From: Prochlorococcus sp. AG-402-A21
GTDB lineage: Bacteria > Cyanobacteriota > Cyanobacteriia > PCC-6307 > Cyanobiaceae
Direction: 5' to 3'
Assembly (NCBI GenBank): GCA_003279655.1
Contig: QCHI01000016.1
Coordinates: 1 to 34,818 of the forward strand
DNA: 34,818 nt
This document shows positions 1 to 34,818 of this stretch, in pieces (position 1 is the stretch's first letter; each line of letters starts with the position of its first letter). The notes under the pieces are model-generated. The model saw nothing but the letters and a program-made list of their open reading frames with translations. It was not told the DNA's origin and searched no databases. The position numbers were made by a program, and so were the translations under genes.

Positions 1-1163
1 GGAAGACTTATAACCTTGAGCCCATAGAATCTATCGTCAATGAAGGTGAGTCAATAACTATTAATGTTGAAACAACCGGTGTTAGTAATGGAACGCAACT
101 TTATTGGCTATCAACAGGAAACGGTATAAACGAATTAGATTTCTCAGAGGACTCTATTTTATCTGGCACTCTAACTGTTCCTTTACATACAAACCTTTCT
201 TTTACTCATACTCTCCTCAATGATGAAACGACTGAAGGTGAAGAAATAATTATATACCAACTTTTTGCAGACATAGCAAAAACAAAAGAAGTTGCAACAA
301 CAACTGTTATGATAAAAGATACTTCTCAAAATCTTTTAAAAGGAACTAATCAAGATGACATCATTACTGGAGGGGATGAATCTGAGAAAATAATTCCTGG
401 AAGTGGTGACGATGTTATTGATGGTGCGGGAGGGGATGACTATATTATTTATGATGGAAATTTTAAGGATTACCTTATCAATAAGGACCTCGAGACAGTT
501 GAAATACAAGATATACGTCTAAATGAAGTAGATGGAACTGATTCTGTTAAAAATATCGAGTATTTCCAATTTGCTGATCAAATTGTTTCTTCTGACAAAA
601 TTAATGTTGTTAAAACTTTTAGCGGTAATTTTAGTGACTATAAATTCTATAACAAAAGTGATGGAACCTATGAAATTAAAAATCCAAACGGAACAATAGA
701 TGAGATCACAGGCATTCCCAAGCTCACCTTTAATGATAAAACGACTGGTGTTAGTGCTATCGCAGATATCAAAGCAGTCTTTGATCAAGTTACAGGGAAA
801 GAAAATCCCACAGGTGAAATGTTCCGTCTCTATAACGCTGCCTTCGCTCGTTTCCCTGATACTGATGGATTGAAGTATTGGATCGATAAATATAGCTCTG
901 GAGAAAATGATTCAAGAGCAGTCGCTTCTTCATTCTTAGCATCTGCAGAATTCACTGAAAAGTATGGAAGCAACGTAAGTGATGAGACATACGTCAACAA
1001 CCTCTACAAAAATGTCCTTGGTAGAGATGCTGATACTGAAGGACTTAACTACTGGGTAGGCAACCTTAGCAGTGGAGTTGAAACCCGCTATGAAGCGCTC
1101 CTAGGTTTTGCAGAGTCAGCAGAAAACAAAGCGCTCTTTACTGATATGACAGGTTTTGGTTAA
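1..1163 (+). CDS. Secreted RTX / Calx-beta / DUF4214 protein, C-terminal part (5' partial)
   Basis: The reading frame is open from the first full codon (base 3), so the ATG at 309 is internal and the gene begins outside the window. Bases 3-320 encode a Calx-beta-like beta-sandwich (NEGESITINVET near its start, a TTEGEE turn later). Next come RTX-type calcium-binding turns (TNQDDIITGG, GSGDDVIDGAGGDDYI), then a C-terminal DUF4214-type region with two related copies: RLYNAAFARFPDTDGLKYW and LYKNVLGRDADTEGLNYW. This architecture is typical of large calcium-binding proteins exported by type I secretion in cyanobacteria, which carry no N-terminal signal peptide. Role in adhesion or surface structure is inference; no enzymatic domain is visible. 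The stop is followed after 3 bases by a small secreted-peptide gene, suggesting one transcript. Confidence 0.85.
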   Translation, partial: KTYNLEPIESIVNEGESITINVETTGVSNGTQLYWLSTGNGINELDFSEDSILSGTLTVPLHTNLSFTHTLLNDETTEGEEIIIYQLFADIAKTKEVATTTVMIKDTSQNLLKGTNQDDIITGGDESEKIIPGSGDDVIDGAGGDDYIIYDGNFKDYLINKDLETVEIQDIRLNEVDGTDSVKNIEYFQFADQIVSSDKINVVKTFSGNFSDYKFYNKSDGTYEIKNPNGTIDEITGIPKLTFNDKTTGVSAIADIKAVFDQVTGKENPTGEMFRLYNAAFARFPDTDGLKYWIDKYSSGENDSRAVASSFLASAEFTEKYGSNVSDETYVNNLYKNVLGRDADTEGLNYWVGNLSSGVETRYEALLGFAESAENKALFTDMTGFG

Positions 1164-23337: not shown

Positions 23338-24120
23338 TTAAGCATCCTTAACGTCAAGAGATGCCCTGGTTGCATCTACAAAATGAATTTCAAGTTCATT
23401 ACTAAAGATGTCCGTGCCGTTGGAAGGAACAACAAGAGGTAAGTCTCGATAAGTAAGCAAACAATTTTTCATATTTAATTCATGCGATGAATAAATTCCA
23501 TCGTGCTGTCCACCCTCTGTCTTAAATTCTCCTGCCTCTGTTTTCGACCAAATAATAAACCAATCCAGTTTTTCCAATTTTTCTAGTTTTGCTTCATTCC
23601 ATTCGTGATAATCATCAGAATCAAAACACTCCATTATCGATGTCTCTACAGCCTCACCATCTACTTCTATTCCACCTTCATCCAAGTGGATTGCATATTC
23701 CTCTGCCCCATCCTCCTCAAGAAGAACTTCATTATTAAAAGTCTTCTGTGCAAGTGCAAACATCTCTTCTTTTCTGTCATCAAGAATCTTGCTGATGACC
23801 ATATCTTCATCCCAATGACGCTCGTCGATAATGTAACGAAGTGAGCCAAATCTTTTAGCAAGTGCCTTATTAGCTGCATCTTTAGCAATCTTCGCTGCCT
23901 TTTCACTATCTTCATCAAGTTCATCTTTCAGACGTTTTAAGTCACTTGCTAGTGCATCCATTTTTTTATAGAACTCGCCATAGTATTTTCCCTCTCTAGT
24001 TTTTTCAGTTGAGTAAAAGACCTTGATGTATTGAATATCCCCATTGTAAGTAACTTCAAATGGCATTGGATTCGAACTATCTCTTATTGCAATGATCACG
24101 CCTTTTCCCAACCCTCGCAA
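23338..24120 (-). CDS. Acidic hypothetical protein, 260 aa
   Basis: I do not recognise this protein. It has no signal peptide or membrane segment and is strongly acidic. Residues about 44-92 (YYGEFYKKMDALASDLKRLKDELDEDSEKAAKIAKDAANKALAKRF shown only in part here as KRLKDELDEDSEKAAKIAK) form a likely coiled coil. A central acidic region includes LLEEDGAEEYAIHLDEGGIEV. The C-terminal part is mixed (WFIIWSKTEAGEFKTEGG). It stands alone on the minus strand between the channel and a membrane peptide. Length and clean reading frame support coding. Confidence 0.65.
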   Translation of the reverse strand: MRGLGKGVIIAIRDSSNPMPFEVTYNGDIQYIKVFYSTEKTREGKYYGEFYKKMDALASDLKRLKDELDEDSEKAAKIAKDAANKALAKRFGSLRYIIDERHWDEDMVISKILDDRKEEMFALAQKTFNNEVLLEEDGAEEYAIHLDEGGIEVDGEAVETSIMECFDSDDYHEWNEAKLEKLEKLDWFIIWSKTEAGEFKTEGGQHDGIYSSHELNMKNCLLTYRDLPLVVPSNGTDIFSNELEIHFVDATRASLDVKDA

Positions 24121-25075: not shown

Positions 25076-26665
25076 ATGGAGGGATCTCGGAAGGAAGCAA
25101 AAAAAAAATTCATTCAATTAAAAACATTCCCAGTTCCATTTGCGTGTGAAGAAATTAAAAAAAATATTACTCTTACTACTAAGAATACTTCTAAATCATC
25201 CAAAGAACACATACTTAATCAAGCATTAAAGTTTCATTCACAAGGTAATAATTCAGAAGCAGAAAAATACTATCAACAATTAATAAATCAAGGATTTAAA
25301 GATCACAGAATTTTTGCTAACTACGGCATGGTCTTAAAAAATCTTGGAAAGTATAAAGAAGCAGAATTATCTACTCAAAAAGCAATTGAACTAGATCCAA
25401 CTTTCGCTAATGCACATTTCCATCTTGGACTAATCCTAAATGATCTTGGTAAATTAAAAGAAGCAGAAATCTCGACTCGAAAAGCAATTGAACTAAATCC
25501 TAATTTCGCTAATGCACATTCCAATCTGGGAACCATATTACAAAATCTTGGTAAATTAAAAGAAGCAGAAGTCTCGACTCGAAAAGCAATTGAACTAAAT
25601 CCTAACTACGCAATTCCTCATTACAATCTTGGAAGAATATTGAAGGATCTTGGAAAGCTAGAAAAAGCAGAATTATCATACCGCAAAGCAATTGAACTAA
25701 ATCCAAACTACGCAAAAGCACATTCCAATCTTGGAAATATTCTTAAAGATCTTGGAAACAGTCAGGAAGCTATTATTCACTTTAAAAAAGCAGTAGAATT
25801 AAAGCCTGAAGATGAAAAATTGGTTAAAAGATTAGCATATGACCTATATAATGAAGGAAGATATGAATTAGCTTTAAAATATCTAAGTCAAAATCAATCT
25901 ATTTCTTGTCAGAGTTTATATCTAGGTTGTTTATTGTCCCTTGATAAAGAAAAAGAGTTTAATCAAAAATATAAAGAAATATCTGCTAGGAAGATTTTTA
26001 ATGCTGAACTTGGAGGTATCATAGAACATGCCAATATTATATATGGAAAGAAGTATGAATCAACATTCTGTCAGGAAGCAATTGATTATATATCAATAGA
26101 AAAAATCAATGAAAATTCATTATCAGAGTATCACTTAAATGAACTAATTAATTACATCAAAACATATTCAAAGGAAAACAAAACACAAGGTCTTCTCACA
26201 AATGGAATACAAACTTCAGGAAATTTATTTTCATTAGATTATCCATTTATTCAAGCAATGAAAAAAGCTTTAGAAATGAATATTGAAAAATATAGACAAA
26301 AATTCAAACATAGTTCACAAGGTTTTATAAATAATTGGCCAGAAATTTATGAACTTAGGTCATGGATGATTAGTATGCGAAATGGTGGATTTCTCAAAAG
26401 CCATAATCATGAATATGGATGGATTACTGGTAGTTTTTACCTCCAGATTCCAAAATATAATGATGATGATAATAATTCAGGCAATATAGCTTTCAGCTAT
26501 CAAGGTCCTAGATATCCCAATAAAAATAAGAACTTTAATTTAACTATTAAAAACATAGAAACGAGAGATATTTGCATATTCCCCTCTTCTTTATTTCACT
26601 ACACAATTCCTTTTAAAAGCACAGAAGAGCGTATATGCTTTGTTTTTGATTTAATACAGAAATAA
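25076..26665 (+). CDS. TPR protein with C-terminal 2OG-Fe(II) oxygenase domain (array gene 1)
   Basis: The 529-residue protein opens with the shared leader (TFPVPF at 17-22, KNITL, SKE, ILNQALKFHSQGN). About six TPR units follow at 45-250, each near 34 residues, with NLG.IL..LGK..EAE.S.RKAIEL.P. The last part, about 428-529, resembles the putative 2OG-Fe(II) oxygenase family: H443 and H445 in KSHNHEYGW, then GSFYLQIP, then a distal H508 in PSSLFHYTIPF and R519 for 2-oxoglutarate. It may hydroxylate proteins or small molecules, with TPRs binding the target; this is inference. The segment 250-427 has no recognised domain. Confidence 0.82.
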   Translation: MEGSRKEAKKKFIQLKTFPVPFACEEIKKNITLTTKNTSKSSKEHILNQALKFHSQGNNSEAEKYYQQLINQGFKDHRIFANYGMVLKNLGKYKEAELSTQKAIELDPTFANAHFHLGLILNDLGKLKEAEISTRKAIELNPNFANAHSNLGTILQNLGKLKEAEVSTRKAIELNPNYAIPHYNLGRILKDLGKLEKAELSYRKAIELNPNYAKAHSNLGNILKDLGNSQEAIIHFKKAVELKPEDEKLVKRLAYDLYNEGRYELALKYLSQNQSISCQSLYLGCLLSLDKEKEFNQKYKEISARKIFNAELGGIIEHANIIYGKKYESTFCQEAIDYISIEKINENSLSEYHLNELINYIKTYSKENKTQGLLTNGIQTSGNLFSLDYPFIQAMKKALEMNIEKYRQKFKHSSQGFINNWPEIYELRSWMISMRNGGFLKSHNHEYGWITGSFYLQIPKYNDDDNNSGNIAFSYQGPRYPNKNKNFNLTIKNIETRDICIFPSSLFHYTIPFKSTEERICFVFDLIQK

Positions 26666-27612
26666 ATAACATTCAACCTTTTCCTTCTAATAATTAAATT
26701 ACATATTTATTTAAGCAATATTTTTCAAGGAGATAAGAAGAAGATAAACTTATAGAAGTGGGTAAAATTTGGAAAGAAGTATACACATGCTCTCGAATAT
26801 TATATGTATTCAAGTTTAAAAATAAAAGACTTACTCATTAAAGAGAGTATGGGTGAATCTCTCAGAAACGAGAATATACATACCAGTATCAGAAAAACTA
26901 TTTATAAACAAATATATTCCATACAAATACCGAGCGTATAATTACTATAAATAAGTAGACGTATTACTTTTATTCCACCCAATAGAGGCTAAAAGAAATT
27001 CATTATCATAAATAAAGCAGTATAGTATTTGATACTAAACAATTTCTTCGAGAAACTACATTGAAACTAATAAGAAAGAGTTCGAAATAAAACACTTCTC
27101 AAGACAAAGCTAGCATTAAGATATAACGAAAAATATTAAAATATTTTGATTTTAAAGAGACAATTAAAAACATATAGGTAACAAATGAGAACTTAATTCC
27201 TTAAAACCCCTGTCAAAATTACTATTAATAAGGAAGTAAATCCCGCAAAAGCCTCAAAACTTAAATTAGCTGTAAAAAGTAGACATTCCTGCAATTCTCA
27301 CTCAATAGAACTTATCAAGAGAACACTCCTATATCCTAGTTATGCCAACCGGTTGTTTCTTTATACATAGCACGTGAAAACCCCATGAAACCACTCACCC
27401 AAAATCCCTTATAAGTAGGTAAGTAATATTCTAAATGAAACTCAAGAATTCATTCTATGACTCACTTATATTCTAATAATTGATTCTCACTTAAACGTGC
27501 CTGATAAACTTATTAAGTTTTGGACAGGGATTTACTCCATTAATTTACCAGTGGAACTGTTAAAAAGTAATATTTATCATTAGCAAGGTGGTAACCAATT
27601 ATTTAGCTTTAC
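26666..27612. other. 947-base gene-free stretch with a relict intergenic repeat
   Basis: No ORF I can support. The sequence 26931-27110 carries the box 1 and box 2 elements of the array's intergenic repeat, but no TPR gene follows directly. This suggests a gene was lost or the region split. The remainder (27110-27600) is AT-rich with no structure that I can see. Confidence 0.45.
26931..27110 (+). repeat. Array intergenic repeat, copy 1
   Basis: Box 1 (GTAGACGTATTAC, then TTCCACCCAATAG) is at about 26955-26984. Box 2 (TTGAAACTAATAAGAAAGAG) is about 100 bases later at 27061-27080, then AACACTTCTCAAGACAAAG. Order and spacing agree with copies 2, 3 and 4. Confidence 0.5.
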
Positions 27613-27984
27613 CTAACTACGATCGATTTTTACGCCAAAACCCTCAGGTATCTCTTCGTTGATATCTTTTAAATCCATCCATCTACTCTCCTCCTCTATA
27701 GTTATATTTTTGAACTTTCTGACATAAACATCTCCTGCTAGATCGGGATCTTCAACTCCAAAGAAATCACATATTTCTTCTACTCTTGCCCAATGCTCAA
27801 TTTCATTCGTTGCTCTTTTGAATTCAGTAAGTTCAAATTTTGCTTGTTCTTGCTGACTTAATTTATTTAAAACTGAGGATGAAACAGAGACGATTGCATA
27901 ATCCCATTTAGAACTATCTTCTCCTTCCAGCGCAAGATTTCTCTTATTTAGTTCTTGTAACCAGGCTTCATCCATATTCTTCAA
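27613..27984 (-). CDS. Hypothetical protein, 123 aa
   Basis: An acidic soluble protein with no family I recognise. It begins MKNMDEAWLQELNKRN (the ATG at codon 4 is an alternative start) and contains helical segments (SVLNKLSQQEQAKFELTEF, EIEHWARVEEICDFFGVED). It sits on the opposite strand to the TPR genes around it, inside the array. Confidence 0.6.
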   Translation of the reverse strand: MKNMDEAWLQELNKRNLALEGEDSSKWDYAIVSVSSSVLNKLSQQEQAKFELTEFKRATNEIEHWARVEEICDFFGVEDPDLAGDVYVRKFKNITIEEESRWMDLKDINEEIPEGFGVKIDRS

Positions 27985-28206
27985 TTTTTCTTAATTCCAC
28001 CCAAAGAGTTTATTTGATTGAATGAATCTTTTTAGCATTCGTCACATTCACTCTACGCTAAGGAGTTATAAAACATATCCACATCTATAAAGTTCAATAA
28101 AATATTGGTTAAACTCGCTTTTTAAATAGTAAATGATTTCCCAAAGAGTTCATAAGGATTCCAATTAGCAGTAAAATCGAAAGAACCAAAAGATAGAAAA
28201 GTATAG

Positions 28207-30108
28207 ATGGAACAATCTGGTGATAAAGATCAAAGACCCAAGAAATTTTCTGAAATAACTACATTTGCAGTTCCATTTTCTTTAGTTGAAAATCAAAAAA
28301 ATATTACTATTATTACTAATACTCCTAAGAAATCTTCTAAAGAAGAAGAAATAATTAATCAGGCATTGAAATTACATTCACAAGGAAATATTCTAGATGC
28401 AAAAAAATATTATGAATATTTTATTAATCAAGGTTTTAATGATTACAGAGTGTTTTCGAATTATGGAACAATTTTAAAAAACTTAGGACAACTTAAAGAA
28501 GCAGAAATATCAATACGAAAAGCGATAGATCTTAAATCCGATTTCGCTGAAGCGTATTCCAATCTAGGAATCATATTGAAAGATCTTGAAAAATTACAAG
28601 AAGCAGAAATCTCCACTCGAAAAGCTATTAAAATCAACCCAAATTTCACTGATGCTCATTACAATCTTGGAATTATATTGAAAGATCTTAATAAATTACA
28701 AGAAGCAGAAATCTCCTATCGAACAGCTATTAAACTCAACCCAAATTTCGCAAATGCTCATTACAATCTTGGAAACGTATTGAGAGATCTTGGTAAATTA
28801 CAAGAAGCAGAAGTGTCATACCACAAAGCAATTGAACTTAAACCTAATTCCGCTGATACTTATTACAATCTTGGACTCATATTGAGTGATCTTGGTAAAT
28901 TACAAGAAGCGGAGTCCTCATATAGCAAAGTAATTAAACTAAACCCGAATTTTACAAATGCTCATTACAATCTTGGAAACATATTGAAAGGTCTTGGCAA
29001 ATTACAAGAAGCAGAATTCTCATACCGCAAAGCAATTGAACTAAACCCTAATTTCGCTAATGCTCATTCAAATCTTGGAAACATATTGCTAGATTTAGGC
29101 AACTTACAAGAAGCAGAATTATCCAGTCGCAAAGCAATTGAACTCAAGCCTAATTTCGCAGAGGCGCATTTCAACCTTTCATTAGTAGAGCTTATAAAAG
29201 AAAAGTATCAATCTGGTCTAGAAAATTATGAATTTAGATTTAAAACCAAGAAGCCTCATACAACTCATTGTCAACCACAACTCAAACGAGTCAAGAATGA
29301 GAAATTAAAAAAAGAAGAAAAACTTTTAATCGTTACTGAACAAGGGTTAGGAGATACTCTTCAATATATGCGTTATGTTCCTTATCTAAGGAGTCAAGAT
29401 CTAGATGTTTCTTTTTGTGTCCAGGAAAAACTACATTCATTAATCAAAGCATCAGGTATTGATAACAATCCATTGACTCCAATTCAAGCAAATACAGTCT
29501 CAGAGGGGAAATGGATCCCATTATTATCTATACCTAGATATCTAAAAGTAAGTCCAGAAAATCCAATCATTACTAAACCATACATCCATTCATCAGATGA
29601 ATTAAATCAGAAATGGAAAGATATCTTATCTAAAGAAAAAAGACCCATCGTTGGTATTAATTGGCAAGGAAATCCAGAAATGGAAAAGAATTATCAAGGA
29701 CGTTCAATCGCTCTAGAAGAGTTTTCAATAATTTCTTATCGCAATGACATCTCATTACTATCACTACAAAAAGGATTTGGTTCAGAGCAATTAGAAAAAT
29801 GCTCATTTAAAAATAAGTTTGTTCAATGCCAGCAACAAATTGACTCCGCTTGGGATTTTCTTGAGAATGCTGCCATAATTGAGAACTGCGATTTAATTAT
29901 TACTTGTGACACTTCTATTGCTCATTTAGCAGGAGGAATGGGCAAAAAAGTTTGGTTACTGCTAAGAAATATCCCTTATTGGACGTGGGGACTAGACAGG
30001 GAAAGTACATTTTGGTATCCCTCGATGAGGTTGTTTCGACAAAAAGAAAGGCACAACTGGCAAGGAGTTATGGAGAGAGTATCAAGTCAAATAAACATAG
30101 AAATTTAA
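28207..30108 (+). CDS. TPR protein with C-terminal GT9-like glycosyltransferase domain (array gene 2)
   Basis: The 633-residue protein has the shared leader (TTFAVPFSL at 18-26, KNITI, SKEEEIINQALKLHSQGN) and about nine TPR units at 46-345, many nearly identical at DNA level with a 102-base period. Residues about 372-633 match the heptosyltransferase-like GT9 fold often fused to TPRs: LIVTEQGLGDTLQYMRY at 374-390, GINWQGNP, and CDTSIAHLAGGMGKKVWLLL starting at 567, followed by the typical WGLDRESTFWYPSMRLFRQ. A glycosyltransferase acting on a protein or surface glycan is the family inference. The first bases around the start are almost identical to gene 3. Confidence 0.85.
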   Translation: MEQSGDKDQRPKKFSEITTFAVPFSLVENQKNITIITNTPKKSSKEEEIINQALKLHSQGNILDAKKYYEYFINQGFNDYRVFSNYGTILKNLGQLKEAEISIRKAIDLKSDFAEAYSNLGIILKDLEKLQEAEISTRKAIKINPNFTDAHYNLGIILKDLNKLQEAEISYRTAIKLNPNFANAHYNLGNVLRDLGKLQEAEVSYHKAIELKPNSADTYYNLGLILSDLGKLQEAESSYSKVIKLNPNFTNAHYNLGNILKGLGKLQEAEFSYRKAIELNPNFANAHSNLGNILLDLGNLQEAELSSRKAIELKPNFAEAHFNLSLVELIKEKYQSGLENYEFRFKTKKPHTTHCQPQLKRVKNEKLKKEEKLLIVTEQGLGDTLQYMRYVPYLRSQDLDVSFCVQEKLHSLIKASGIDNNPLTPIQANTVSEGKWIPLLSIPRYLKVSPENPIITKPYIHSSDELNQKWKDILSKEKRPIVGINWQGNPEMEKNYQGRSIALEEFSIISYRNDISLLSLQKGFGSEQLEKCSFKNKFVQCQQQIDSAWDFLENAAIIENCDLIITCDTSIAHLAGGMGKKVWLLLRNIPYWTWGLDRESTFWYPSMRLFRQKERHNWQGVMERVSSQINIEI

Positions 30109-30485
30109 GCTCGTGGTCTGTGAATCTGTTATTGGTTTGAAATCAAGAATCTGAGATAAGAAAAGTTGTTATAATGTAAGAAGATTAATTTAATCTATTC
30201 CTATATTTTGTAGTCGATTACTCCCACTTAATAAATCCACTAAAAATTCTAAGTTCAGAATCCTTTCTTAAAATGAAGAAATCATAGCATGTGAGAATAT
30301 TGAAATCGTATGTGAAACTAACAAGAGACGATTAAGAACTAAAAACTTCTCAAAGAGAACATTGCCGTAGAAATATCGGGAGGAATTATTCATAGAAACT
30401 GATAATTTATAACACTGATCATGAAAAAACAATAATTTTAGGATAAGTAGTAATATGAGTGGTATCAAAAAATAGAAAAGTATAG
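30109..30485 (+). repeat. Array intergenic repeat, copy 2 (upstream of gene 3)
   Basis: No gene. GTTGTTATAATGTAAG at 30165-30180 resembles GTTGCTATAATAGAAT of copy 4 and contains a TATAAT. Box 1 (TTTTGTAGTCGATTACTCCCACTTAATAA) is at about 30206-30234, box 2 (TCGTATGTGAAACTAACAAG) at about 30306-30325, followed by AACTTCTCAAAGAGAAC. The TATAAT could be a -10 element (inference). Confidence 0.55.
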
Positions 30486-31079
30486 ATGGAGCAATCTACT
30501 GATAAAAATCAAGAGAAAAAGAAAGTGTATGAAGTAATTACATTCCCAGTTCCATTCCCTTTAAGCGAAAAACAAGAAAACATTAATATTAATTCTCCTG
30601 CTAAAACTTCTAAAGAAAAAATCATTAATCAAGCAATTAAGTATCATTCAAAAGGAAACATTTCACAAGCAGCAAAACATTATAAATATTTCATTAATGA
30701 AGGTTTCACTGATCACAGAGTCTTTTCAAATTATGGAATAATTTTAAAAGATTTAGGAAAAACAAAAGAAGCAGAATTTTCATTCCGTAAAGCAATTGAA
30801 CTTAAACCTGATTACGCAGATGCGCATTACAATCTGGGAAATTTATTGAAAGATATTGGCAAATTAGAAGAAGCAGAATTTTCATTCCGTAAAGCAATTG
30901 AAATTAAACCTGATTACACAAAATCATATTATAATCTAGGAAATATATTGAGAGATATTGGTAAATTACAAGAAGCAAGATTATGTTCAGAAAAAATTAT
31001 GTCTTTAAGATCATGGTCAATTTTAGGGTCATACAGTTTTAATTATGAGATGCAATTAGATTTATCTCATAAAGCATAA
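30486..31079 (+). CDS. Short TPR protein with the shared leader, no catalytic domain (array gene 3)
   Basis: A 197-residue protein: leader (ITFPVPF at 18-24, ENINI, SKEKIINQAIKYHSKGN), about three TPR units at 45-165, then a unique tail ARLCSEKIMSLRSWSILGSY. The reading frame is intact, so this is either a natural short form or a shortened copy that lost its catalytic end. Its start region is nearly identical to gene 2: AAAAGTATAGATGGA, then similar codons. The last 41 bases overlap the convergent SET-like gene. Its role could be an adaptor or an inhibitor of the longer members; this is speculation. Confidence 0.75.
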   Translation: MEQSTDKNQEKKKVYEVITFPVPFPLSEKQENININSPAKTSKEKIINQAIKYHSKGNISQAAKHYKYFINEGFTDHRVFSNYGIILKDLGKTKEAEFSFRKAIELKPDYADAHYNLGNLLKDIGKLEEAEFSFRKAIEIKPDYTKSYYNLGNILRDIGKLQEARLCSEKIMSLRSWSILGSYSFNYEMQLDLSHKA

Positions 31080-32052
31080 GTTTAGTAAAGATCTTGAAGA
31101 CTTTATTATCTCTAAAATGAGACTCCTCTATAATTTTTTTTCTAATTAAAATATTTATTTGGAATATTTTGAATAAAAGATCTTGTGGAATATTAATATG
31201 ATCGATTCTCCTAAGAATCTCATCAAAATAATCATAAGGTAATCTCGGATGATTTACATCAGCGATAGGCAAACCCTCTAAAATAATTTTATTACCAGAT
31301 CTTTCTATTTTCATAGAATCATTATTAAGACTCATTCCTTTACAACAAATATGAATCCCAAGATTTTCAATATTAATTGAAAAAGGTATTGAAAATACTA
31401 TAGTTTCTTCAGAAAAAAAGCCATAAGAAAAAAAACGATTTAATGGACTAGAATTATTATATGAATGTCTTATCTCACTATTTAGAGCAGGATAATTTGG
31501 AGTGCTTATTCCTTCCTCATTCGTAATAAAAGGCAAAGATCTTACTTGATGATTTACAAGCTCCCAGATAGGAGCAATAACTGAACTATTTCTAAAATTA
31601 ACTGCTCTAGCATTCAAGAATTGGTTTTTAATAACTTCCTCCCAATTTCCTGCATGCCTTTCATCTAAATCAACTAAAGCATTCTTTTTAATTAATTTCT
31701 TTAAATTTGGACTAAATAAACTTAATCCTTTCTCAAATAATTCTGTTGTTTCTTTCCCGCCGGAACCCCATGAAAAGTTATCTTGGTAAAAATTAAAAAA
31801 ATTCCTAATTTCCTGGTTATATTCTCTATCTTTTTTAATTCTTAATTTATTACCTTCTAAATCAATATCATCTTTTTTAATCAATAATTTTGATGGAGTA
31901 AAAATTCTCGCACTCAGACAGGGGTTAACAGAAAAAATACCTCTACCATATTCCCCTTCCTTTTGGCATACATTATCTGCTATACCACCAAGTCTACGAA
32001 ATTCAGTAAGTAAAAAATCCCAATTATCGTCCATAAGAGATATTATCTTCAT
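31039..32052 (-). CDS. SET-domain protein, lysine-methyltransferase-like
   Basis: The 337-residue protein shows the order of motifs found in Rubisco-LSMT-like SET proteins: GGIADNVCQ then GEYGRGIF at 33-40, a long inserted helical region, WELVNHQV at 163-170 (the NH motif), and FFSYGFFSEETIVFSIPF starting at 207 with the YGF element. C-terminal helices follow. SET enzymes methylate protein lysines with S-adenosylmethionine. The gene is on the minus strand and overlaps the end of the short TPR gene. Motif spacing is plausible but I could not align it, so the assignment is tentative. A catalytic tyrosine is probably Y210. Confidence 0.55.
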   Translation of the reverse strand: MKIISLMDDNWDFLLTEFRRLGGIADNVCQKEGEYGRGIFSVNPCLSARIFTPSKLLIKKDDIDLEGNKLRIKKDREYNQEIRNFFNFYQDNFSWGSGGKETTELFEKGLSLFSPNLKKLIKKNALVDLDERHAGNWEEVIKNQFLNARAVNFRNSSVIAPIWELVNHQVRSLPFITNEEGISTPNYPALNSEIRHSYNNSSPLNRFFSYGFFSEETIVFSIPFSINIENLGIHICCKGMSLNNDSMKIERSGNKIILEGLPIADVNHPRLPYDYFDEILRRIDHINIPQDLLFKIFQINILIRKKIIEESHFRDNKVFKIFTKLMLYEINLIASHN

Positions 32053-32699
32053 GCAATATAATTAGTTAATCAAAAAATTACAAAACTGGGAAAAATTTGA
32101 AGAGTAAAATCCCACGACCTTAGCAGAAGTATCAGTTCTAGGTTTGATAAAGCGAAAATCTTTCTACTTCATAAGCATAAAAATAAATTGAATTTATAGA
32201 GAAACGCATATTTCTATGATTTCTCCATAGAGACGTTGAGAAAATCACAAAACAAACCGGTGACAAAAAAAGAAGGTTTAAATGCCTCTTATTCCATAAC
32301 CTCACGCCCAAAACATACCTATGAGAAAATCTACTTATTAGAGTATAAATACTATTTTGTAGACTTTAATTCCCACTCAATTGTTCTTACCCCAAATATC
32401 CCTTGTCATCCCAGTCCCACAATCAACCAATTTTCCCTCAATTTTCGTATGAAACACATAAGAAACATATTTGCCCTTTTATTGGTCCGTTTTAGACATT
32501 GATATAGACAATTGGTAAAGCATATTCCATCCTGTTTTCGTTTGGTGATTTTGTCCCCTTGTCCAATATCTCGACGTAGAAAAATAGTAAAAAACCTTAC
32601 TTTTTATTCTCATATAAAAAGTTCAGAAATAACTTCTGACAAAAGAAAAGAAGATTCGAACTAGTAGTAAAATACTTGTAATCAAAGGGTAAAAAAATT
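32053..32699. other. Intergenic region between the SET gene and TPR gene 4
   Basis: No gene that I credit. Bases 32335-32600 hold array intergenic repeat copy 3. An 88-codon ORF at 32236 overlaps the repeat and is judged spurious. The divergent SET gene starts at 32052, so both genes could draw on this region. Confidence 0.5.
32335..32600 (+). repeat. Array intergenic repeat, copy 3 (upstream of gene 4)
   Basis: Box 1 (TTTTGTAGACTTTAATTCCC, then ACTCAATTGTT) is at about 32354-32384 and is followed by ACCCCAAATATC. Box 2 (TCGTATGAAACACATAAGAA) is at about 32446-32465. A third block, CCATCCTGTTTTCGTTTGG, follows at about 32527 with GACGTAGAAAAATAGTAAAA near 32573. All three blocks recur in copy 4 in the same order. 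Confidence 0.7.
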
Positions 32700-34181
32700 A
32701 TGAGCCCTGAGCCACAAGAATCAGGTAGGAGAGAAGACTCTGAAGTAACTACATTTCCAGTTCTATTTGGTTTAGAAGAAATACAAGAGAATATTTCTAT
32801 TTCCACTAACACTTCTTCTAAACCTTCTAAAGAAAAATTAATTAATAAGGCTAGAAACTTACATAAACAAGGAAATATTCCAGAAGCAACAAAATATTAT
32901 CAACAGTTAATCAATGAAGGATGTAATGATCACAGAATCTTTTCTAATTATGCAGCAATATTAAGTAATCTAGGCAAATTACAAGAAGCAGAATTCTCTA
33001 CTCGCAAAGCAATTGAACTCAAACCTGATTTCGCAGAGGCGCATTCCAATCTGGGAACCATATTAAAAGATCTTGGCAACTTACAAGAAGCAGAATTATC
33101 TACTCGCAAAGCAATTGAATTCAAACCAGATTACGCAGATGCTCATTCCAATCTGGGCGCCATACTCCTTCAAAAAGGCGACTACAACTTATCCCTAAAA
33201 TATTTTGCAGAAAGTGCTGAATTGCTTAGAGGGGAAAAAACTCAAAGAGACAATCAGATCAGATCAGAAATAATTAGTAAAGCTAAAATAGAACATGATA
33301 TTGAACAATTTGAATATTTAGCATCACAAGGTTACGAGCCTAAAAAATTTACAGCTCTAGCCATTCTGTTTAAAAAAGTTTCCGCTGAAATTAATTGGCC
33401 ATCTGAAACTAAATTAATTTCTCTAAATAATCATCATCAAAGTCTTTTACAAGGTAGTTATAATCGTCTCATACATACAATAGAGACACCTAAGTTAAGA
33501 CAGGAAGCAGTTAATAATTCATTAAATGTTGAGAAAATTACAAATAATTATTTTGATCATGAGTTCGGATTAACTTACATTGATGATTTTTTGAGTCCTA
33601 CAGCTCTGGAATCACTTCGTAAATTTTTACTGGGAAGTACAATTTGGTTTGAAGTCAAAAATAATGGATATCTTGGAGCATATTTTAAAGAAGGCTTAGC
33701 TAATCCTTTAATAATTCAAATAGCAAATGAATTAAGAACGAAGTTCCCAAAAATTTTCAAAAATCATCCAATTAATCAAATATGGGCGTACAAGTACGAT
33801 AGTCGTGCTAAAAATAAAAATTCATCTCTCAAAGGCATCAATGTTCACGCAGATTTCGCAGCCGTAAATGTAAATTTTTGGATTACTCCTAACGAAGCAA
33901 ACTTAAATTCTGAGTCTGGTGGATTAATCGTGTACGACATAGAAGCTCCAAAAGAGTGGGGTTTTAAAACTTTTAATAATGATGAGAAAAGAATCAGAAA
34001 AGAGCTAAACAAAAGTAAAGGAGGCACGAAAATTATTCCTTATAATGAAAATCGCGCTGTCGTTTTTAATTCAAATTTATTTCATGAAACTGATCACTAT
34101 GAATTCAAAGAAGGGTATGAAAATCGTCGAATCAACATCACGATGTTATTTGGAATGAGAAGTAATAATCAGACTGATTAA
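32700..34181 (+). CDS. TPR protein with prolyl-hydroxylase-like 2OG-Fe(II) oxygenase domain (array gene 4)
   Basis: The 493-residue protein has the leader (TTFPVLF at 17-23, ENISI, SKEKLINKARNLHKQGN) and about four TPR units at 45-180. A linker follows, then a domain from about 285 to 485 with an iron-binding set: H383 and D385 in NVHADFAAVNVNFW, GGLIVYDIEAP, and H462 in FNSNLFHETD. The R476-R477 pair in YENRRINITMLFG supplies the 2-oxoglutarate arginine. This fits the prolyl-4-hydroxylase-like branch common in marine cyanobacterial TPR proteins. The domain is different from the oxygenase of gene 1, so the two genes do not simply share a duplicated tail. Confidence 0.85.
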   Translation: MSPEPQESGRREDSEVTTFPVLFGLEEIQENISISTNTSSKPSKEKLINKARNLHKQGNIPEATKYYQQLINEGCNDHRIFSNYAAILSNLGKLQEAEFSTRKAIELKPDFAEAHSNLGTILKDLGNLQEAELSTRKAIEFKPDYADAHSNLGAILLQKGDYNLSLKYFAESAELLRGEKTQRDNQIRSEIISKAKIEHDIEQFEYLASQGYEPKKFTALAILFKKVSAEINWPSETKLISLNNHHQSLLQGSYNRLIHTIETPKLRQEAVNNSLNVEKITNNYFDHEFGLTYIDDFLSPTALESLRKFLLGSTIWFEVKNNGYLGAYFKEGLANPLIIQIANELRTKFPKIFKNHPINQIWAYKYDSRAKNKNSSLKGINVHADFAAVNVNFWITPNEANLNSESGGLIVYDIEAPKEWGFKTFNNDEKRIRKELNKSKGGTKIIPYNENRAVVFNSNLFHETDHYEFKEGYENRRINITMLFGMRSNNQTD

Positions 34182-34601
34182 CTCTATAAATCCGCAAAGT
34201 TGCTATAATAGAATATAAACTAATCAAATTTAATTACAATCACTAGATTCTATAGACGTATCAATCCCATTCAATAGTTACTACCCCAAATATTTCTTAT
34301 AATCCCTATCCCTACTTAACAAATTTTTTCTCAATTTTCGTGGAAAACGTATAAGGAGATAACTAAACCGATATCTAATGATTTTAAATTTTGATTTAGA
34401 AATTCCTTAATCAAATTACATCCTGTTTCGGTTAGATGATTTTCTCCTCTTGTTCTACTCCTCTACGTAGTGAAATTGTAAAAAGCTAAGATTCATAGCA
34501 ACTTAACTGAAGACACATCGTTCATATATTTTAGAATTCATTAGTTTATAGACAAAAGCTAGTCTAAATTAAAATGAGATTGCTAGTTCAACAAAGAATC
34601 T
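34182..34601 (+). repeat. Array intergenic repeat, copy 4 (upstream of gene 5)
   Basis: GTTGCTATAATAGAATATAA starts at about 34200. Box 1 (CTATAGACGTATCAATCCCA, then TTCAATAGTTACTACCCC) starts at about 34250. Box 2 (TTTTCGTGGAAAACGTATAA) starts at about 34335, and ACATCCTGTTTCGGTTAG at about 34418 with CTCTACGTAGTGAAATTGTA near 34461. It is the best-preserved partner of copy 3. No gene is visible. Confidence 0.7.
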
Positions 34602-34818
34602 GTGAGAGAAGAAGAAACAGAAAAAAAGAAAGTCAGCAAATTCACAACATTCCCAGTTCCATGGGAGTTAGGAGAAATTAAAAAAAATATTTCTCTTTTT
34701 ACTAATAAAATAAATAAACTCCCAAAAGAGCAAGTAATTAATCAAGCATTTAAGTTTCATTCACAAGGCAATATTTTAGAAGCATCAAAATATTATCAAT
34801 ATTGTATCGATAAAGGTT
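34602..34818 (+). CDS. TPR protein with the shared leader, 3' partial (array gene 5)
   Basis: Translation from a GTG at 34602 gives VREEETEKKKVSKF, then TTFPVPWELGEIKKNISLF, then PKEQVINQAFKFHSQGNILEASKYYQY; the window ends inside the first TPR. An in-frame TAG stands at 34584, and no ATG lies between it and the leader, so GTG is the only likely start. The distance from start to TFPVP (14 residues) is close to that in its relatives (16-18). An upstream ATG lost by mutation (a pseudogene) cannot be excluded. The C-terminal domain is outside the window. Confidence 0.7.
   Translation, partial: MREEETEKKKVSKFTTFPVPWELGEIKKNISLFTNKINKLPKEQVINQAFKFHSQGNILEASKYYQYCIDKG

Follow-up and report, generated by a model that had tools for sequence, protein, structure and literature searches.

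A possible combinatorial family of leader-TPR enzymes in Prochlorococcus

Why should consecutive genes of one genome begin alike and end in different enzymes, or in none? The question is raised by five + strand genes of Prochlorococcus sp. AG-402-A21 (Table 1) on contig QCHI01000016.1 (C16 in this analysis), whose 34,818 nucleotides form the window analyzed here and belong to a 1.67 Mb genome in 41 contigs. Each gene opens with a leader bearing a TFPVPF-type motif, followed by tetratricopeptide repeats (TPRs). An earlier interpretation made from the letters of the DNA, the sequence-only reading, took the leader for a docking or addressing module and the locus for one that modifies a common protein or surface polymer. 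The family to which these five genes belong is much larger and is concentrated in one genus-level group. Its modular anatomy and its recombination are well supported; whether it works as a combinatorial enzyme family, in which a TPR superhelix would choose the substrate, an interchangeable end (or none) would set the chemistry and a disordered leader would dock, is an evenly balanced judgement.

Leader, scaffold and enzyme ends

All five genes carry the leader motif, as had been claimed, with single changes among them (KTFPVPF, TTFAVPF, ITFPVPF, TTFPVLF and TTFPVPW), and in genes 1 to 4 the TPR_1 score lies above the Pfam cut-off of 27.8 (159.7, 203.4, 83.5 and 71.4 bits, in order). The predicted 2-oxoglutarate (2OG)-Fe(II) oxygenase end of gene 1 is confirmed (2OG-FeII_Oxy_5, PF13759, 88.1 bits, cut-off 27), as is the lack of a catalytic domain in gene 3, where the Pfam scan finds nothing after the TPRs. 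The glycosyltransferase proposed for gene 2 resembles GT9 but misses the PF01075 cut-off (16.1 bits vs 22, and 15.3 in a relative), and is called GT9-like here. For gene 4, read earlier as a prolyl-hydroxylase-like oxygenase, H383-x-D385 and H462 are invariant in 6/6 aligned sequences (gene 4 and five relatives), but the Pfam scan gives no domain after its TPRs and no oxygenase match for the end of one relative; its AlphaFold model is poor (mean predicted local distance difference test score, pLDDT, 52; oxygenase-like end mostly under 50). By its motif, the end would fit a 2OG oxygenase.

The repertoire of the family is wider than the window. Cataloguing three genomes gave 89 proteins, some of them fragments or leader-free relatives; 73 have the TFPVPF leader by the criterion of this analysis. 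The C-terminal regions of enzyme size in this catalogue form 11 clusters, classified by scanning one or two representatives of each against Pfam: GT9-like ends are the commonest (20), followed by sulfotransferase (10), GT41 (10), 2OG-FeII_Oxy_5 (7), TylF-like (7), gene-4 type (6), class I methyltransferase (5) and 2OG-FeII_Oxy_3 (3), two clusters of no family (3 and 2) and one singleton with no enzyme family above cut-off. At the named loci, 85 of 87 complete open reading frames (ORFs) have the leader, and 22 of the 85 fall outside these classes. These 22 include FkbM ends, PRMT-like ends (PRMT5_C above cut-off), radical SAM/SPASM ends and, both below cut-off, Sulfotransfer_2-like and NKWYS-like ends, all of them in single-cell genomes, as well as enzyme-free forms. 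At least nine Pfam-supported enzyme types, corresponding to the nine end families above cut-off (2OG_5, Sulfotransfer_3, GT41, TylF, Methyltransf_25/11, 2OG_3, FkbM, PRMT5_C and radical SAM/SPASM), sit behind the leader. GT41 ends on TPRs occur in members of the family that lie elsewhere than in the window (PF13844, 257 bits), and no complete window gene has one in the Pfam scan; Sulfotransfer_3 was found in 0/10 in genus g24.

The scaffold comprises 2 to 16 similar TPRs per protein, as scored. The best match in the PDB to the modelled TPR part of gene 2 is the TPR domain of OGT (1w3b_B, Z 31.2, root-mean-square deviation 2.6, 302 aligned), in a fold search that informs on the TPR part and barely covers the enzyme end. 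In the AlphaFold models of genes 2 and 4, nearly all residues 1-41 have pLDDT <50 and the first helix begins at residue 44. For this reason SKE..INQA..HSQGN, which the sequence-only reading had counted in a leader of about 60 residues, is assigned to TPR1 as its helix A, and the leader proper, predicted to be disordered, shrinks to ~residues 1-43. The mostly conserved positions in gene 2 numbering (F20, V22, P23, F24, L26, E28, N32, I33, I35 and N38) outline a linear motif, ~F.VPF.L.EIKENITI.TN.

The leader is nearly genus-restricted. A leader-only profile matches 25/300 genomes of the taxonomic family in 4/59 genera: 21/24 of the same-genus genomes shown, plus four genomes from three other genera, each of which has one or two matches. 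The GT9-like end is far more widespread (103/201 genomes, 40/59 genera). The leader is thus not a general first part of such TPR proteins in cyanobacteria; had it been one, the modular reading would have foundered by its own test. With a leader+TPR1 query, 25/25 genus genomes match (G006, G013 and G016 just once, weakly) and 0/15 genomes from other families of the class do; in a scan of named genomes, 188 loci were confirmed and 80 kept, the best 77 of them all from Prochlorococcus. The recurrence is far beyond chance: the genome of the window has 26 leader+TPR1 matches, several at contig ends, of which 25 reach E values of 2e-16 or below and the last is weak (7.5e-4). It also has 24 leader-profile matches (best E 7.7e-25), 24 being the number scored in a scan of at most 24 candidates per genome. 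Two single-contig relatives have 44 and 46 leader+TPR1 matches. In G010, a marine phototroph with a small genome (1.92 Mb), one recombining enzyme family occupies at least 3.6% of the sequence (68.5 kb in 37 catalogued genes).

An alternative N-terminus, MKGFG, replaces the leader in some genus members, where it precedes the same TPR1 and occurs with enzyme ends. In other genera, [KR]GF lies within the first 90 residues of 5/19 TPR proteins in which an upstream stop is seen, and it was noticed near the N-terminus of TPR-enzyme proteins at L227, L232, L236, L239, L240, L246 and L250. It is possibly an older leader, and the TFPVPF leader may be a genus-level replacement of that older N-terminus.

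Exchange of ends within the TPRs

Catalogued genes were paired where 400 nt or more are ≥88% identical, and each pair was compared over the longest segment that it shares. All 13 qualifying pairs (13/13), each from within one genome, are alike at one end only. Seven are alike from a TPR to the end, with enzyme identities of 0.87-0.98; their leaders are only 0.27, 0.39, 0.42, 0.42, 0.45 and 0.61 identical in six; the ORF of the seventh truncates the leader. The other six are alike in the 5′ part and carry enzyme ends of different classes (identity 0.20-0.28); leader identity is 0.64-1.00 in five, and the sixth has an MKGFG-type start. In 12 pairs the breaks fall inside the repeats. The pair with the MKGFG-type start differs: one member breaks at its last scored TPR, its counterpart within its TPRs. 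For example, G002 1377360 and 1379997 are 98.4% identical over 1063 nt and then part into a sulfotransferase and an unknown end. Since similarity is one-ended in every pair and stops inside the TPRs or at their edge, enzyme ends have apparently been re-paired by recombination inside the repeats. Unequal homologous recombination between TPRs would both change the repeat number and swap enzymes. In most of ten pairs examined, the common DNA already begins before the start codon, by 13 to 255 nt. By eye, AGTAGTAAAAT or a TATAAT-like box was spotted recurring ~25-50 nt before the start (upstream of 28207, 30486 and other copies), which suggests, as a hint from such inspection, that each gene may have its own promoter.

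The leader is largely decoupled from the enzyme that follows it. Leader identity is 0.496 within classes (279 pairs) and 0.493 between classes (1999 pairs, including some leader fragments). When classes are shuffled among 60 leader proteins with a classed enzyme, neither the leader (p 0.35) nor TPR1 (p 0.56) is linked to class, and the last TPR before the enzyme is (p 0.011). The sequence-only reading had named the lack of a link to the enzyme ends as part of one refuting condition; within the genus the leader is indeed carried without a link to enzyme type. What stands of the modular proposal is one leader with many ends, re-paired by recombination, and a leader that can move to another TPR scaffold or be replaced by MKGFG.

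A leader free of TPRs, proposed earlier as a check, is nearly absent from the collected loci, most of which were fetched with leader+TPR1 queries and lean towards TPR1. They give 214 unique leader-profile matches, one of them spurious. Among the 213 instances, one 88-residue ORF departs from the TPR1 pattern, two reach contig ends before TPR1, and L082 and L159 (the latter ending in radical SAM/SPASM) have the leader on unrelated TPR scaffolds; the remainder lead into TPR1 over whatever length is readable.

Enzyme-free copies, neighbours and the array site

Gene 3 is no fragment: it belongs to a class of enzyme-free copies that recurs and whose tail is conserved. In 7/7 distinct loci of the data analyzed (G000, G002, G172, AG-402-P16, AG-402-M23, AG-402-M18 and AG-402-I20) this tail, tail A, is convergent with a SET-like gene, with an overlap of 16-37 nt when the SET-like stop codon is excluded. 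Convergent, mostly overlapping pairs were seen at 30486-32052 of the window and at L084, L106, L030, L131, L054/L128, L129 and L196. Distant SET-like homologues have a convergent, non-overlapping TPR gene in G058, where the leader is absent, and in L178, whose 5′ end is unseen; near those of L197, L198 and L200 there is no convergent gene, L199 has a short non-TPR ORF and L115 is cut. A methyltransferase gene had been placed within the array, and a gene with the motifs GRGIF, NH and YGF is indeed there, but neither Pfam nor PDB profiles support the assignment: none of 7 aligned homologues has a Pfam hit at E<=5, PDB sequence and profile searches with the gene return no SET protein, more distant homologues lend no support, and PF00856 itself is matched in 4/40 relatives, none in the genus. 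Drawn from motifs, the assignment goes as far as "SET-like".

Directly after a second tail, B, comes a 199-residue ORF (zero distance) in G000 C28, L183 and G010 1379036, and not in five others; the G010 ORF, the one scanned, matches 2OG-FeII_Oxy_3 (46.7 bits). Tail-B leader-TPR genes directly before a small oxygenase-like ORF were noted at L007 1495-2771, L183 2953-4673 and G010:C1:1378436-1380343. Because of the neighbours of both tails, the catalytic partner may be either fused or adjacent.

Table 1. Features of the window that bear on the gene array
Feature	Position	Strand
Flank gene of the array site; homologues adjoin the G002 and G010 arrays	23338-24120	-
Gene 1: leader, TPRs (5 scored), 2OG-Fe(II) oxygenase (2OG-FeII_Oxy_5, residues 428-525)	25076-26665	+
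Small gene at the array site; homologue within the G002 array (1396445) and beside the G010 array (1401261)	27613-27984	-
Gene 2: leader, TPR superhelix (model helices residues 44-347), GT9-like end	28207-30108	+
Gene 2 leader, residues 1-43, predicted disordered; conserved core ~residues 17-38	28207-28335	+
Gene 3: leader, TPRs, enzyme-free, conserved tail A (..LCSEKIMSLRSWSI.GSYSFNYEM..)	30486-31079	+
SET-like gene (motifs only), convergent with and overlapping gene 3	31039-32052	-
Gene 4: leader, TPRs, second oxygenase-like end (HxD...H in 6/6 sequences)	32700-34181	+
Gene 5: leader, start of TPR1; GTG start; open frame to window end, cut by contig end	34602-34818	+

Homologues of the window flank genes border arrays in G002 (~1377-1421 kb) and G010 (~1366-1399 kb), and the enzyme genes inside differ between genomes. 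An ion-channel gene sits at different ends of the array or inside it, so the site has been rearranged. Within the G010 array lie gmhA-like (SIS-domain), hldE-like and gmhB-like (HAD-phosphatase) genes (G010:C1:1394475-1397437, L074). ADP-heptose was considered as the donor for GT9-like ends and rejected as a general rule: hldE is full-length in 5/41 genus genomes (any match in 7), GT9-like ends occur in 26/41, and G313 has hldE and no GT9-like end. Proteins of DUF4214/RTX type, numerous in most of seven genus genomes searched, are found near some TPR genes (window 3-1163; L056 15469-17310). As a common substrate they were rejected as well, since G209 has 48 leader/TPR1 matches and 2 weak DUF4214 matches, and G095 has 3 and 13. 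Both candidates thus failed to track the family, and the common modified protein or polymer of the sequence-only reading is not borne out. A phage or viral origin was likewise set aside: in a scan that was not exhaustive, none of 85 pattern-matching stretches in viral contigs is a relative, and the one match in a phage collection covers TPR residues 86-150 only, at 41%.

Possible roles and known systems

What might such a family do? The TPR superhelix would choose the substrate, probably proteins by analogy with OGT, and the enzyme end would set the chemistry, be it glycosyl, sulfo, methyl or hydroxyl transfer. The leader, in the least certain step, may be a common short linear motif that brings members to one partner or place. 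OGT-type proteins and the constraint on the leader sequence are the grounds for proposing substrate selection and docking. In its fullest form the proposal is combinatorial post-translational modification, with a docking leader taking recombining TPR readers, fused to or paired with at least nine chemistries, to one hub; this is put forward tentatively, with more doubt than confidence. If it holds, recombination between TPRs would yield new substrate-chemistry pairs in an otherwise small genome.

Several observations weigh against it. Sequence divergence is faster in the leader than in TPR1 (mean identity 0.49-0.50 vs 0.66; dN/dS, the ratio of nonsynonymous to synonymous substitution rates, ~0.49 for the core vs 0.35), which leans towards the decay of similarity named earlier as fatal to modularity. 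The leader has no match above cut-off in Pfam and none in a profile search of solved structures, and three same-genus genomes (G095, G006 and G302) lack a match in the leader-profile scan. Neither a substrate, for which two candidates were tried, nor a partner of the leader was identified. The nearest leader neighbour shares the enzyme class in 15/60 cases vs 9.4 expected (p 0.055), so decoupling may not be total. GT9-like, TylF and FkbM families are known also from sugar or natural-product pathways, so the substrates need not be proteins.

The leader could have no docking role at all. As the inherited 5′ end of one ancestral gene, it would have spread by duplication and recombination together with upstream DNA, its conservation then being due to shared ancestry and to a loose constraint from expression or folding. 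Its faster divergence, the shared DNA that starts before the start codon in most of the ten pairs and the exchange for MKGFG all fit, as do leader scores that are alike in enzyme-free copies (median 67.4 bits, n=22) and in copies with an enzyme or long end (66.9, n=140; p 0.79). Yet the leader core is under moderate purifying selection relative to the extreme N-terminus (dN/dS 1.45 for the first ten residues): most copies keep F20, V22, P23, E28, N32 and I35, whereas the first ten residues drift, conserved leader codons show some synonymous variation and the leader persists on foreign TPR scaffolds. A leader without any docking role is rather unlikely. The same constraint, falling on residues 17-38 rather than the first ten, makes a translation-level or stability signal (N-terminal codons, an N-degron or a chaperone-binding tail) very improbable, even if a lysine-rich N-terminus, predicted to be disordered and followed by a hydrophobic motif, is what such a signal might look like.

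The arrays might instead be a recombining store of enzymes that modify surface glycans or proteins for escape from phages or grazers, with the TPRs acting mainly as recombination substrate and generic binder. Arrays of differing content between homologous flank genes in G000, G002 and G010, the spread from 3 to 48 leader/TPR1 profile matches among seven genomes and the frequency of glycosyl-, sulfo- and methyltransferase ends point this way, but the missing link to ADP-heptose genes or DUF4214/RTX proteins does not, and PRMT-like and GT41 ends would fit intracellular proteins; surface variation is considered improbable. The family also offers an example, provided by nature, of enzyme domains being exchanged across repeat proteins, and concrete candidates for protein modification in low-light Prochlorococcus.

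TPR Pfams are reported to be enriched in low-light Prochlorococcus, and TPR expansion is hypothesized to concern photosystem assembly (PMC11357015); in another paper, small accessory clusters are reported to have TPR proteins as one of their more abundant annotations (PMC7779031). No description of the leader-TPR-enzyme family was found in the open-licence literature, and one may exist elsewhere.

Parallels exist in several known systems. Polymorphic toxins such as Rhs and CDI also combine a conserved front with exchangeable ends and recombine at the common region; here, by contrast, no toxin, immunity gene or secretion signal was recognized in the parts examined, with no dedicated search made. 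The prochlorosins of Prochlorococcus, peptides cleaved from a conserved leader, likewise diversify their C-terminal part within one genome, whereas in the present family the variable part is itself the enzyme and nothing points to cleavage. In OGT (GT41) and bacterial TPR-GT41 proteins, too, a TPR superhelix precedes the catalytic end; the family has GT41 members and its modelled TPR part finds its best structural match in OGT, but GT41 is one of many ends on the scaffold, and a genus-level leader is added. TPR fusions to sulfotransferases, 2OG-Fe(II) oxygenases, FkbM/TylF methyltransferases and PRMTs are known, with the same kinds of catalytic domain after the repeats; what sets the Prochlorococcus proteins apart is that they form a single recombining family, whose ends appear to be exchanged behind one leader.

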